A DNA stretch of 64,000 nucleotides from Pseudomonas sp. Irchel s3f7. GTDB lineage: Bacteria; Pseudomonadota; Gammaproteobacteria; Pseudomonadales; Pseudomonadaceae. Of this stretch, positions 18,564-22,304 are shown piece by piece (position 1 is the stretch's first letter; each line of letters starts with the position of its first letter). The stretch spans positions 62,001 through 126,000 of the forward strand of contig NZ_FYDO01000021.1 of the NCBI RefSeq assembly GCF_900187615.1, given 5' to 3'. The notes beneath the pieces are model-generated. The model was not told the origin of the DNA. It searched no databases and was given only the letters and a program-made list of their open reading frames with translations. The position numbers and the translations under genes are program-made.

Positions 18564-19217
18564 ATGGACAGACACGAACGTATTGCCCGAGCCATCGCGC
18601 TCAGCGGGAAAAAGAAAGGTGAAATCGCGTCCCTATGTGGGGTTGCGAACTCTGCTGTGACTCAGTGGATTTCAGGGGAAAGTAAAAGTCTGCGCCCAGA
18701 AAATCTTTATGCGTTAGCCAAGGCGACTGGATTCCGCGCTGAATGGCTCGCTATCGGTGAAGGCGAAGAAACGGAGCTTTCCGATTCGAACGTGAAGGAC
18801 ACACGTCAACCGGTAGAGTCGTTTCGATACCCGGTAATCAGTTGGGTTGCCGCTGGTGCATGGGCGGAAGCAATCGAGCCCTTCCCTCCCGGGTTTTCAG
18901 ATCGATACGAGCTATCGGACTACAACTCCAAGGGCCCGGCTTTCTGGCTTGAGGTGAAGGGCGACTCGATGACATCTCCGGTCGGGACAAGCATTACTGA
19001 GGGAACGCTGATCCTGGTTGATACCGAGGCTGACGTTCAGTCCGGAAAACTAGTGGTGGCCAAATTGGCTGACAGTGACCAGGCTACCTTCAAGAAACTC
19101 GTGGATGACGGTGGCCGACGTTACTTAAAGCCTTTGAACCCTGCCTACCCTACAGAGATGTGTGCAGAGAACTGCCGAATTGTTGGAGTCGTGGTTAGGG
19201 CGCTACAAAAGCTATAG
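18564..19217 (+). CDS. CI-like repressor with LexA-type autoprotease (S24)
   Basis: 217 residues. HTH at about 17-45 (KKKGEIASLCGVANSAVTQW), hinge, then the S24 peptidase: cleavage site Ala97-Gly98 (SWVAAGAWAEA), nucleophile Ser135 (VKGDSMTSPV) and general base Lys177 (ATFKKLVDD). It should keep the prophage silent and be cleaved when RecA is activated by DNA damage, so the prophage should be SOS-inducible. Divergent from cro; a terminator follows. Confidence 0.92.
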   Translation: MDRHERIARAIALSGKKKGEIASLCGVANSAVTQWISGESKSLRPENLYALAKATGFRAEWLAIGEGEETELSDSNVKDTRQPVESFRYPVISWVAAGAWAEAIEPFPPGFSDRYELSDYNSKGPAFWLEVKGDSMTSPVGTSITEGTLILVDTEADVQSGKLVVAKLADSDQATFKKLVDDGGRRYLKPLNPAYPTEMCAENCRIVGVVVRALQKL

Positions 19218-19243
19218 GACGTCCAGCTTGTCTGCCTTTATAG

Positions 19244-19268
19244 AGCCCGCCATGTGCGGGCTTTTCTT
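19244..19268 (+). terminator. Intrinsic terminator after cI
   Basis: Stem GCCCGC/GCGGGC with a 5-nt loop, followed by CTTTTCTTCTT. It lies 27 nt after the cI stop. Confidence 0.75.
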
Positions 19269-19427
19269 CTTCGGTCCCCTCAAGTCTTTCACTCCTCTTA
19301 AGTCCGCTGCGTGTGTTTCTCTGTTTGGAACAAAGCTTTTTCAGCTGGCCGAAATGGGATATCCCAGCACGCCAAACATTTGACATTTTATGGGGCGCTT
19401 CCAAACGATAAAACAAAGGATCACTGC

Positions 19428-19679
19428 ATGCATCGTCCCCCTCCTCCTGCCAGCTCAGTTGGGAACTCCTGTGAGCTTATACGCCGACGTATCCAACACC
19501 TGACCTCTGCACCGGATGCACAGAAAACCCAATCCATCGTAATCACCAGGTCAGATGAAGAATCTGCCGATGCGTGGCTGCATATCCTTGATGAAATTGA
19601 AGAAACCGATGGGATCAGAATGGAGCGATTTGAGAGCGGCGCTGTCAGGATCGGATGGCGACAGTACTGCGAATCGTGA
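19428..19679 (+). CDS. 83-residue phage protein of unknown function
   Basis: Start at 19428 chosen for the AAAGGA box upstream; a longer reading would need the space used by the cI terminator. The sequence (MHRPPPPASSVGNSCELIRR, ... 'ADAWLHILDEIEETDGIRMERFE') is acidic in the C-terminal half and has no membrane segment. Its own terminator follows directly, so it forms a separate unit between the two operator sets and would be made in the lysogen if read with cI. No family recognised. Confidence 0.5.
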   Translation: MHRPPPPASSVGNSCELIRRRIQHLTSAPDAQKTQSIVITRSDEESADAWLHILDEIEETDGIRMERFESGAVRIGWRQYCES

Positions 19680-19682
19680 ATT

Positions 19683-19709
19683 GAGCCCGCCAATGAGCGG
19701 GCTTTTTAT
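19683..19709 (+). terminator. Intrinsic terminator
   Basis: Stem GCCCGC/GCGGGC with a 6-nt loop followed by TTTTTATT, immediately after the 83-residue ORF. It separates the cI unit from the left operon. Confidence 0.8.
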
Positions 19710-19720
19710 TGTCTGTTGAT

Positions 19721-19778
19721 TTCAGATTGCTGAATTAATAATTCAGCATGCTTGACTCTTCTATTTCAGCTTGCTTAA
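19721..19778. promoter_or_regulatory. OL-like operator triplet at the left early promoter
   Basis: TTCAGATTGCTGAA (19721-19734), TTCAGCATGCTTGA (19742-19755) and TTCAGCTTGCTTAA (19765-19778), spaced 21 and 23 bp. They share the TTCAG half-site of the sites between cro and cI, so CI and Cro likely act on both. The plus-strand operon to int starts downstream. Confidence 0.62.
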
Positions 19779-19822
19779 ATTAACTCAAGCCAAGCGACAC
19801 CGGCCAGCAGCGAAAGCCGCGC

Positions 19823-19904
19823 CACTCTTTAACAATCAGCGCAACAAACAACAGACCCCATTGCCCCTACCGGCGACCGGCGAGCAGACAGGCCCGAAAG
19901 CCTG
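19823..19904 (+). promoter_or_regulatory. nut-like boxA and boxB in the left operon leader
   Basis: CACTCTTTAACAA at 19823-19835 resembles boxA (consensus CGCTCTTTAACA). About 50 nt later CAGGC/GCCTG (19889-19904) closes a 6-nt CCGAAA loop, boxB-like. Together they would make an antitermination site for polymerase from the left promoter. The 160 nt up to the TerB-like gene hold another hairpin (GCTGCACC 20021-20028 with GGTGCAGC 20039-20046) and no convincing gene. Confidence 0.4.
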
Positions 19905-20075
19905 CCAACGACAGGAACAACCTGGACGGCTGCTCGATGGTGAAACGCCAGAACCGTGTGAATGACCCGGCAAGCAATGCGCCCCGCTCCTCCAGCGGCA
20001 ATAGGACGGACAGCATCACTGCTGCACCTTGGCGACAGGGTGCAGCGGGATGTAACCCACCTCAGAGGAATCACC

Positions 20076-20513
20076 ATGCTCGGTATCGGTAAGAAACTGT
20101 TTGGCGCCAAGCGCGCAGTCAAGAAACTGGAAAATCGCGACCTGATGCAGGCCATCGTCGGTGGCTGCCTTCTGGTAGCAGCAGCGGATGGCGAGATCAG
20201 CAAGAACGAAGCAGCCCAGATCGACATCCAGCTGAGGGCTAACAAGGCGCTCGAACACTTCGGCTCCGAGATCACCAGCACGGTCAATCTGTTTACCGAA
20301 CAGCTGCAAGCCGGCTTCCGACTCGGTCGCATGAACATCCTGCGCGAGATTCGCGACATCAAAAACAACCCGGCCGACGCGGAAGAGGTGTTCGTGAACA
20401 TGCTCACCGTTGCCGAGGGTGACGGCAACATCAGCCCCGAAGAGCTGAAGGTGCTCGCCGAAATCGGAAACGAGCTGGGCCTGCGCCTCAAAGACTTCGG
20501 TATTGAGGCGTGA
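20076..20513 (+). CDS. TerB-like protein
   Basis: 145 residues from the ATG after GAGGA. 'LMQAIVGGCLLVAAADGEIS', 'FTEQLQAGFRLGRMNILREI' and 'VFVNMLTVAEGDGNISPEEL' are the TerB-like all-helical fold with its acidic metal-binding D-G-E/D-G-x-I-S pairs. TerB proteins are known from tellurite-resistance loci and, more widely, from phage and defence contexts; the tellurite role is not implied here. It is the first gene of the left operon, coupled to the next gene by a GTGA overlap. Confidence 0.8.
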   Translation: MLGIGKKLFGAKRAVKKLENRDLMQAIVGGCLLVAAADGEISKNEAAQIDIQLRANKALEHFGSEITSTVNLFTEQLQAGFRLGRMNILREIRDIKNNPADAEEVFVNMLTVAEGDGNISPEELKVLAEIGNELGLRLKDFGIEA

Positions 20514-20716
20514 GGAAGCGGGTGAAGCAGATGCTGGTCTACTCCGGGGCGATTGTTGTTCTGGCAGTGATCGGCAACAGCATCGCCAATCGCGGTTCCT
20601 GCTCCTACTACGGTTTCCAGACAGATCGAGAGACCCGCTACGCCGCCTTTGTTGGTTGCATGGTGCAGGTCAACGGAGCGTGGTTCCCGCGCAATGAAAT
20701 CCGCGTAATGCAGTGA
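20510..20716 (+). CDS. Small one-TM phage protein
   Basis: 68 residues. GTG start overlaps the TerB stop (GTGA); an ATG at 20531 is an alternative. 'MLVYSGAIVVLAVIGNSIA' is a membrane segment or signal anchor, then 'CSYYGFQTDRETRYAAFVGC' with two cysteines that could pair outside the cytoplasm. Coupling to TerB-like suggests joint function. No family recognised. Confidence 0.55.
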   Translation: MRKRVKQMLVYSGAIVVLAVIGNSIANRGSCSYYGFQTDRETRYAAFVGCMVQVNGAWFPRNEIRVMQ

Positions 20717-20780
20717 CGTTTCACTGATGCCGCTTCTTGCAAGGCGGCATTGGGAAACCAACTAACGCAGGAAATGGACA

Positions 20781-20960
20781 ATGCTGATTTTGACTCGCAA
20801 GGTAGGCGAAAGCATCAACATAGGTAACGACATCACGATCACTGTGCTGGGTGTGAGTGGCAAACAGGTGCGCATCGGAACAAGCGCACCCAAGGATGTG
20901 CCGGTGCATCGAGACGAGATCACCCAGCGCATTCAAGCGGGCTTGTCGAAGCCCCAGTAA
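20781..20960 (+). CDS. csrA: Phage-borne CsrA/RsmA translational regulator
   Basis: 59 residues: [20 protein letters not shown] followed by [20 protein letters not shown] and '[12 protein letters not shown]'. The first beta strand LTRKVGE and the VHRDEI segment with the RNA-binding arginine (Arg44) are conserved, so it should be a functional CsrA dimer that binds GGA motifs in mRNA leaders. The ribosome site AGGA and a second GGA (CAGGAAATGGACA) lie right before the ATG, which is typical for autorepression. It is a paralogue of the host rsm genes carried by the prophage, followed by a structured RNA region. Confidence 0.93.
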
Positions 20961-21464
20961 CGAATCAACCAGCGCCAAAACGACAGCCTGTCGCTAACTG
21001 CCAGAGCACCTGATCCTCCCCAGCACCAGGTCGCATCGGAGTGTGATCTGAAGGCCCGCAAGTGAGGGCGTCGGAGAGCGGAACGGAGCTTGCGAGCAGG
21101 TAGCGCTCCGACCAGATCACACCCCGATGCGGACGAACACCCGGCCATGCGCCGGCCACCTGCATCACCGCAACACAGCAGATGAAGCGCAGTAAGCGTC
21201 AACTACATATCGTTGCCAGGATACGGAAGCGGTGCACGTTGAAAGCCCGCGAGGTCATAACGCCTGGTAAGGGGACGACTCGTCAGCCCCTGACATCTGC
21301 AACCAGTTCAATAGGTGTCCACTGCCTGCCCAGTGAGCGAACCAAAGGAAGATGACCATCATGAAATAGACCCTGACCTAAAGCCCTCCAGTAGGAGGCA
21401 CCTGCGATCACGTAGGGAGGTCTTCGTGACGCAAACAAAAGCCCGGGTTATCTCGGGCTTTTTT
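20961..21464 (+). ncRNA. Structured untranslated region, candidate phage RNA with a three-way junction
   Basis: No convincing gene in about 500 nt. The core (21033-21130) folds as a compact three-way junction: an outer 18-position stem (GCATCGGAGTGTGATCTG 21033-21050 with CAGATCACACCCCGATGC 21113-21130, one mismatch) encloses a GCCC/GGGC hairpin (21054-21069) and a GTCGGAG/CTCCGAC hairpin (21070-21112), with almost no unpaired linker. Further hairpins: CCGGC/GCCGG (21141-21155), GGGGACG...CGTCAGCCCC (21271-21290), CTCC/GGAG (21386-21397) and TCACG/CGTGA (21408-21429). A strong terminator ends the stretch. Several GGA motifs occur, also in loops. It lies directly downstream of csrA. RNA nature is inferred from folding only. 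Confidence 0.6.
21441..21464 (+). terminator. Intrinsic terminator of the structured RNA region
   Basis: Stem GCCCG/CGGGC with an 8-nt loop, followed by TTTTTT. Read on the plus strand, as csrA. Confidence 0.85.
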
Positions 21465-21476
21465 ACACCTGCCTTT

Positions 21477-21538
21477 ATTCGTCAGCACTCTCCCCTGCGC
21501 CGAACGGCAACCAGCAGACAGACCGAGTGCTGACGAAT
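21477..21538. repeat. Perfect 14-bp inverted repeat in a leader
   Basis: ATTCGTCAGCACTC (21477-21490) and its exact complement GAGTGCTGACGAAT (21525-21538) enclose 34 nt that contain a smaller GCCG/CGGC hairpin. It lies between the terminator and the 99-residue gene. It could be an operator, an RNA leader or a recombination site. Confidence 0.65.
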
Positions 21539-21565
21539 ACACGCAACCCACATTGAGGATTCGCC

Positions 21566-21865
21566 ATGAACCGAACGATCAGTCAGAGCCCAGCAATCCT
21601 CCAGCGGTTGCGTCTCCGGACTCCCCTGGACACCACCGAAATGTACCAAAACATAGGTCGTGATGAGCCCGTTCGCATAGTGGACTACACCCCGGCGCCA
21701 GGCGGCGGCATCACAGTTGAACTAATCAAGCACTCCACTGGTACGGCAAAGGGTGAGCCTGCCAACCACAACACAGTGAAAGCGTTCGCTCGCACGCTTC
21801 TGCGCTGGACCATCGGCTCGGCGCTCCTGTTGATCCTGTTCGCCTACTTCGGCGCCGGTCATTGA
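21566..21865 (+). CDS. 99-residue phage membrane protein
   Basis: Start after GAGGA. The N-terminal 70 residues are soluble with a proline-rich beta part (VRIVDYTPAPGGGITVELIK); the C-terminus (about 78-97) is a membrane anchor (TIGSALLLILFAYFGAG). This makes a tail-anchored protein facing the cytoplasm. Fifth in the left operon. No family recognised. Confidence 0.6.
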   Translation: MNRTISQSPAILQRLRLRTPLDTTEMYQNIGRDEPVRIVDYTPAPGGGITVELIKHSTGTAKGEPANHNTVKAFARTLLRWTIGSALLLILFAYFGAGH

Positions 21866-21956
21866 AACGGCCCAGCCAGCGGCGACGCCAGCGCATTCGC
21901 CAGGCGCAATTCAATCTTCCACCCAGCGGTCTACTGACCACCCCGGAGAAACAGCC

Positions 21957-22304
21957 ATGTCCACCCCTACCGACACCGCCGAGTTCCTCAACGAGCTGAA
22001 CGGCGGTGTGTTCGCCAGCCAGATTGGCGTCGCCCTTTCCGAAGTAGCCGCCGGGGTCGTTGACCACGGCAAGGCCGGGAAGCTGGTCATCACCCTGGAC
22101 TTCAGCCGGGTTGGCGAATCTAGCCAGGTGAAGATCAAGCACAAGCTCGACTACAAGGTGCCCACCAAGCGCGGCGCTCGCAGCGAGAACGCCAGCCTCG
22201 ACACGCCTATGTGTGTCGGCACCGGTGGAAAAATCACGCTGTTTGCTGAGAACCACGTCCAAATGTTCGACCGCGCACAAGCCCCAATCATTCCCCGCTC
22301 GTAA
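21957..22304 (+). CDS. 115-residue phage protein upstream of DUF2303
   Basis: Soluble: 'FLNELNGGVFASQIGVALSE' then a beta-rich 'GKLVITLDFSRVGESSQVKI' and 'IKHKLDYKVPTKRGARSENA'. It is regularly found just before a DUF2303 gene in Pseudomonas prophages as far as I remember. 24 nt separate the two genes, so a common role is likely, perhaps in recombination or single-strand DNA handling, but there is no direct evidence. Confidence 0.6.
   Translation: MSTPTDTAEFLNELNGGVFASQIGVALSEVAAGVVDHGKAGKLVITLDFSRVGESSQVKIKHKLDYKVPTKRGARSENASLDTPMCVGTGGKITLFAENHVQMFDRAQAPIIPRS

Follow-up and report, generated by a model that had tools for sequence, protein, structure and literature searches.

The locus raises the question of what kind of sequence follows csrA in a prophage of Pseudomonas sp. 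Irchel s3f7, within the 64,000-nt stretch of DNA analyzed here (the window). Structured phage RNAs as such are already known, and the sequence-only reading had proposed a candidate new one at this site. We conclude that positions 20966-21464 are almost certainly a real, conserved and modular RNA, a larger feature than first described (Table 1). The segment 21025-21140 folds at -58 kcal/mol, against a mean of -38.1 for shuffled sequences (z -5.97; none of 200 shuffles as stable), and the entire 504 nt gave a z of -3.50 (none of 100 shuffles as stable), in agreement with the claim that the region is more ordered than a spacer. The anatomy described in that reading also held: a closing stem with arms of 19 nt each, 95% complementary and 62 nt apart, encloses two abutting hairpins, and an intrinsic terminator lies on the plus strand, although it was absent from the output of a consensus scan of 19900-22000. 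Three features go beyond that reading: a candidate operon start upstream, a minigene at 21361-21369 and a core that is exchanged between relatives.

Table 1. Features of the RNA and of the region upstream, in window coordinates.
Feature	Position	Strand	Basis
Perfect palindrome GCTGAATTAATAATTCAGC, candidate repressor operator	19729-19747	.	sequence
Candidate early left promoter TTGACT...TAAATT	19752-19781	+	sequence; pattern in relatives
boxA CTCTTTAACA	19825-19834	+	sequence; same strand in relatives
Hairpin CAGGC-CCGAAA-GCCTG, possibly boxB	19889-19904	+	sequence
5' part of the RNA frame, with hairpin 1 at 20981-20993	20966-21032	+	sequence
Closing stem, left arm	21033-21050 (21032-21050 as 19-nt arm)	+	repeat detection, covariation
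Exchangeable core of the window phage, two abutting hairpins	21051-21112	+	fold, core comparison
Closing stem, right arm	21113-21130 (21113-21131 as 19-nt arm)	+	repeat detection, covariation
3' part of the frame: GGACGA, hairpin 21140-21155, CCTGCAT	21131-21165	+	several unlike hairpin sequences here in relatives
Hairpin CCACTG..CAGTG, 5' of the minigene	21319-21335	+	sequence
Shine-Dalgarno-like AAGGAAG (GGAGG in many relatives)	21345-21351	+	sequence
Minigene ATG AAA TAG	21361-21369	+	sequence; ORF comparison
Hairpin CACG-TAGGGAGGTCTT-CGTG	21409-21428	+	sequence; motif conserved after minigene
Intrinsic terminator AAAGCCCGGGTTATCTCGGGCTTTTTT	21438-21464	+	sequence

A coding region was rejected. 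Open frames spanning the whole block numbered 12-25 per reading frame in 168 family entries among the matches listed, compared with 19-29 in shuffled sequences, and the combined lengths of stem and core, sorted by their remainder modulo three (26, 19 and 13 of 58, among the matches listed), showed no preference for multiples of three. The region thus lacks a credible gene, as the sequence-only reading had claimed, and no conserved coding ORF across it was found in the 168 entries. Membership of a known Rfam family was likewise rejected. Rfam 15 gave no match in the window at gathering score, in keeping with the earlier statement that the family was not a known one; at E ≤ 1, positions 19200-21600 matched only Trp_leader (19650-19710, below its cut-off), a match that rests on a terminator. 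Twenty related loci gave two Rfam matches only, both off the element: Proteo-phage-1 and RT-15, on the minus strand of related contigs (L316 1809-1887 and L285 6490-6681). The large structured phage RNAs GOLLD and ROOL resemble the element in size and in lacking an assigned function, and GOLLD is described as having a conserved and a less conserved part, binding ribosomes in pull-downs and being able to carry tRNAs (cited part of PMC12286853). The element differs from both in its exchangeable core within a fixed stem, its early-operon position and its minigene, and the GOLLD and ROOL covariance models had no match at gathering score in the window or the 20 related loci. Given this and the apparent early left position, the suggestion of a GOLLD-like lytic RNA was dropped. 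A tRNA or tRNA-like identity was rejected since neither ARAGORN (60 loci; one tRNA, outside the element) nor the tRNA families of Rfam detected a cloverleaf on the element in the loci given to them. Among the open-licence papers listed on phage RNAs, early regions, minigenes, CsrA and put, no title or abstract opening describes such an element, and we know of no other case in which a constant RNA frame hosts exchangeable cores by the dozen.

Relatives are numerous. By BLAST, 14 of 57 genomes (counting the source genome) and 11 phage records contain partial relatives, with matches mostly within 20966-21186, 21292-21370 and 21410-21571. Both ends of the frame were present in at least 163 distinct elements, at least 151 of them from viral contigs, 7 from genomes, 4 from phage records and 1 from a further genome. 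These derive from four pattern scans of viral contigs (at least 120 rows each) and from nhmmer profiles of the two frame ends, which gave at least 180 pairs in at least 172 loci; entries were retained only if nhmmer found both ends. The resulting 170 entries of distinct sequence represent 163 elements, seven being doubled by two 5' matches to one 3' end. Core clustering, gene assortment, boxA and flank comparison were recounted without the doubled elements, and the counts of flanking frames, hairpin variants, loops, core folds, promoters, ANGGA motifs and ORFs refer to the 170-entry set. In all counts the elements are not independent. With a covariance model, the element was detected in 44 of 149 Pseudomonas genomes (the source genome included) and in 1 of 194 genomes drawn from the order, namely the source genome (four of the 194 were Pseudomonas), so under strict filters the family looks confined to the genus. 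The host genome carries two copies (contigs C20 and C49) and the window one; a short-pattern scan of genome contigs matched the element only in L206 among its loci.

Alignment of the relatives indicates a fixed RNA frame that is supported by compensatory changes. The sequence-only reading had proposed looking for such changes in the stems of homologous loci; among 27 frames, 13 of 23 frame pairs vary on both sides. The covariation score was 0.398, against 0.106 in shuffled alignments and at most 0.094 with slid partners, the signal being lost when partners were slid along. Paired cells amounted to 95.0% (shuffled 78.1%; 0 of 500 as high), and 89 cells were altered in both partners, against 25.8 after shuffling. 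Four or five different pair types occur at certain positions; the third pair of hairpin 1 is A-U in 13 frames, U-A in 11, G-C in one and unpaired in one. The 27 frames were hand-picked from 46 non-redundant ones, leaving out those with an extra module, odd or truncated ends or a mis-set anchor (29 of the 170 entries had been set aside for want of an anchor). Because of this choice by hand, all 46 were also counted without selection. Their closing stem was 93.8% paired, against a mean of 78.6% and a highest value of 81.9% when the arms were re-dealt 200 times; the inner ten pairs reached 92.8% (re-dealt mean 67.6%, highest 76.7%). In 117 distinct rows of the whole set, among the matches listed, the stem was 95.2% paired. 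The outer seven pairs (GCATCGG/CCGATGC) are nearly invariant and, having served as anchors, provide no evidence. At the positions of hairpins 2 and 3, the relatives fold hairpins of several dissimilar sequences. Five relatives (L015, L273, L055, L269, L277) carry an extra module, CTATACCGG..GGTTAACCCACCCGA or near it, between hairpins 1 and 2. Together, the covariation, the many relatives and the lack of an Rfam match bear out the proposal of a candidate new phage RNA.

What the stem encloses is far less constant, and sequence comparison indicates that the core is exchanged from phage to phage inside the fixed stem. Among the matches listed, core length between the arms ranges from 27 to 131 nt, and 140 cores fall into 43 BLAST clusters, 22 of them singletons (after removal of duplicate elements and of entries whose stem has fewer than 11 pairs). 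Clustering by k-mers, which splits near-relatives such as L032 and L330, skipped 11 of the 170 entries and includes a few mis-set 3' anchors, gave 64 clusters in 159 entries among the matches listed. The 62 core bases of the window matched no phage record by BLAST. Cores assort freely with upstream genes: 98 elements among the matches listed comprise 44 upstream-gene clusters and 35 core clusters, and the commonest upstream gene accompanies 9 core clusters over 15 elements. Given this free assortment, an RNA fixed to one partner protein, as in type III toxin-antitoxin systems, was rejected for the upstream genes. Among the matches listed, cores are unlike despite similar upstream flanks in 30 of 42 pairs, despite similar downstream flanks in 44 of 59, and in 4 of the 7 phage pairs in which both flanks are alike.

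The cores themselves fold barely better than shuffles (mean z -0.37, 61 representatives), so many may lack a compact domain. Within seven aligned core families (6 to 13 members each, among the matches listed), compensation is rare, affecting 6 of 53 pairs in the best case. Two hairpins with complementary, kissing-type loops occur in 7 of 58 core clusters and in none of 40 shuffle rounds; these seven represent only three loop types (GCUGA/UCAGC, ACUGA/UCAGU, GCCAA/UUGGC). Two core families share 14-15 nt with host tRNA T-arms (30 of 57 tRNA loci compared), a likeness to tRNA that stops short of a cloverleaf; strict T-arm hairpins were detected in 1 of 58 core clusters (shuffle mean 0.08, maximum 1). 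Mimicry of rRNA was rejected, the 13 nt shared with 23S rRNA in one family (23S compared) being too little. As a separate observation, 43 nt resembling 23S rRNA (86%) lie at about 1480-1560 of L533 (contig C50 of the source genome), by eye between two ribosomal protein genes, perhaps as an autoregulatory leader. Some relatives also carry a likely second module after the first (L022 4838-5560, L003 1090-1770), with a stem GCAGATG/CATCTGC and loops that look complementary, and a like module sits within the stem of the first in some others.

The surroundings of the element suggest when it would be transcribed. It lies in what looks like the early left operon of lambda-like Pseudomonas phages, behind the candidate operator and promoter and a boxA (CTCTTTAACA) that we take to be of the rrn antitermination type. 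Repressor, element and integrase share one strand in the window, and the lambda left arm has a like strand arrangement of repressor, early element and integrase. From this order and the layout of operator and promoter, we infer that the lysogen would not express the RNA and that it would appear early after induction. Terminator-like sequences lie on the cI side (19242-19265 and 19683-19710). Among the matches listed, 73 of 120 elements have a boxA upstream on the same strand and none has one on the opposite strand, and a sigma-70-like promoter precedes the boxA in 39 of 79 entries (downstream controls 0 of 79, opposite strand 3 of 79), at 71-83 nt in twelve examples. With a boxA close to the start of its presumed transcript, the element resembles rrn and nut antitermination, from which it differs in that the boxA lies 1.1 kb upstream and outside it. 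The leader after boxA likewise differs among relatives, in several dissimilar versions that suggest it may be modular too (L086, L265, L323, L294 and others; 14 examples). In 98 of 127 usable entries among the matches listed, the start of the element coincides with the stop codon of an open frame 60 codons or longer (opposite-strand control 33 of 170). In the window, the genes 5' of the RNA (20076-20960) encode a TerB-like protein, an unknown protein and CsrA, with relatives in 5, 2 and 5 of the 170 entries, respectively, among the matches listed.

Toward its 3' end the element frequently carries a minigene. Among the matches listed, 78 of 147 relatives have a ribosome site and an ORF of at most four codons within 500 nt; the corresponding figures are 5.7% for shuffles and 4 of 147 for the opposite strand. 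Lengths stop sharply after three codons (one codon, 34; two, 30; three, 16; four, 1), and the codons vary (ATG-stop, ATG AAA TAG, ATG CAC AAG TAA and others); minigene length is conserved far more than its sequence. In the window, an ATG at 21352, in frame with the minigene ATG, would extend the minigene to five codons. Within 800 nt the count is 79 of 147 among the matches listed; 49 of these are followed by a terminator-like site, at a spacing of 55-105 nt in 41. A motif ACRTA-N1-4-GG occurs at most 85 nt after the minigene in 32 of the 79, against 1.7 in shuffles, among the matches listed. The bar minigenes of lambda likewise combine a ribosome site and a very short ORF on a transcript of the phage; the minigenes here differ in being tied to a structured RNA and often to a terminator, with one to three codons of varied sequence.

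On this sequence evidence, we tentatively favor, at less than even confidence, an early RNA that acts in trans, bears exchangeable domains and engages ribosomes. In lambda-like Pseudomonas phages it would be transcribed early, from the left promoter; boxA would carry polymerase through the region that is not translated, and a fraction of the transcripts would stop at the terminator. The frame would then offer a host or defence factor a single domain drawn from a large exchangeable stock, and the start-stop minigene would hold or drain ribosomes or initiator tRNA at the RNA, as lambda bar minigenes do. Action in trans is favored because the core is exchanged where early proteins are also exchanged, and because a cis switch would have no need of dozens of cores. 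Several observations weigh against it: the cores fold weakly, and many of them may therefore lack a compact structure; within 500 nt, no such minigene was found in 69 of 147 relatives among the matches listed; the narrow spacing between minigene and terminator would suit a cis role equally well; many relatives have a stronger ribosome site than the AAGGAAG of the window, part of which is base-paired in the predicted fold; and the kissing-loop clusters reduce to three loop types. Still more doubtful is the wider idea of an RNA effector platform, in which one scaffold is kept and RNA domains are traded like small anti-defence proteins, so that each phage would make a different RNA early in infection, often tied to the ribosome by the minigene. 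Cores acting in trans would be an RNA counterpart of anti-defence genes, and cores acting in cis would constitute a new kind of early-operon control; the minigenes offer a handle on ribosome engagement.

The main rival, which we consider rather improbable, is a cis antiterminator functionally analogous to put of phage HK022, in which the nascent frame would bind polymerase and let it pass 21438-21464 into the rest of the early operon. The element lies behind a candidate early left promoter, its terminator is followed by same-strand genes, and a consensus scan of 19900-22000 detected no sigma-70 promoter, all of which would fit. The put RNAs, also elements of the early left operon, act in cis downstream of PL and PR; however, they measure about 70 nt with two stem-loops, putL lies just after PL, and the cited part of PMC9378689 mentions no exchangeable core. 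The frame is larger, begins about 1.2 kb after the promoter and occurs once in the window; an exchangeable core would not be expected of put, and a boxA is already present upstream. This contrast is one of described size and place. A ribosome-controlled terminator, in which initiation at the minigene would decide whether the terminator 55-105 nt downstream works, fits that spacing (41 of 49 cases, among the matches listed) and the conserved motif in between, and has a precedent in axe-txe, where a two-codon ORF acts in cis on the following gene (cited part of PMC8708949). It is nonetheless unlikely: the longest exact complement to the terminator arm averaged 3.67 nt, against 4.03 in shuffles (42 elements; exact Watson-Crick pairs only, arm position approximate), so no exact arm-sequestering sequence was found, and the cores would be left unexplained. 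Within the scope of that test, a classical leader-peptide attenuator, with its alternative pairing to the terminator arm, likewise gained no support.

We give little credence to the idea that the element serves the upstream early gene as a 3' region that stabilizes or insulates, its cores drifting freely. Its start at the stop codon of the upstream frame (98 of 127 usable entries, as above) and the weak structure of the cores would agree with this, but free drift would not give recurrent core families or minigenes. Very improbable is a DNA-level recombination site whose conserved arms serve the exchange of genes and cores, the RNA being incidental: cores and flanks are indeed exchanged, and the element start AACAACCAGCGCC resembles the sequence after boxA in some relatives, yet compensation in the inner arm pairs would be needless for recombination by homology, and minigenes and terminators imply a transcript. 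We give hardly any credence to the CsrA decoy suggested by the sequence-only reading. That reading was right that the RNA follows csrA, since a true csrA (20781-20960, Pfam E 1.7e-25) adjoins it in the window, and 20961-21466 contains four ANGGA motifs, although shuffles contain 2.2 (sd 1.4) and the count is within chance. Among the matches listed, however, 5 of 163 elements, the window's own included, have a csrA in the 4 kb upstream (upstream flanks are sometimes short, with 1 kb or more in 139 of 170 entries), and the gene is directly adjacent in the window only; its place next to the RNA is incidental. CsrA/RsmA decoy RNAs have repeated, conserved ANGGA motifs, whereas in frame plus core these are rarer than in shuffles (0.26 per entry against 0.91; 170 entries among the matches listed). 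The gene itself is recorded on 9 of 185 Pseudomonas phages in the cited part of PMC7366521.

Beyond the terminator, just 5' of the next gene, the window contains a 21-nt inverted repeat with a 34-nt loop that includes GGCAACCAGC (21470-21545), and similar stretches are present in several other phages and prophages.
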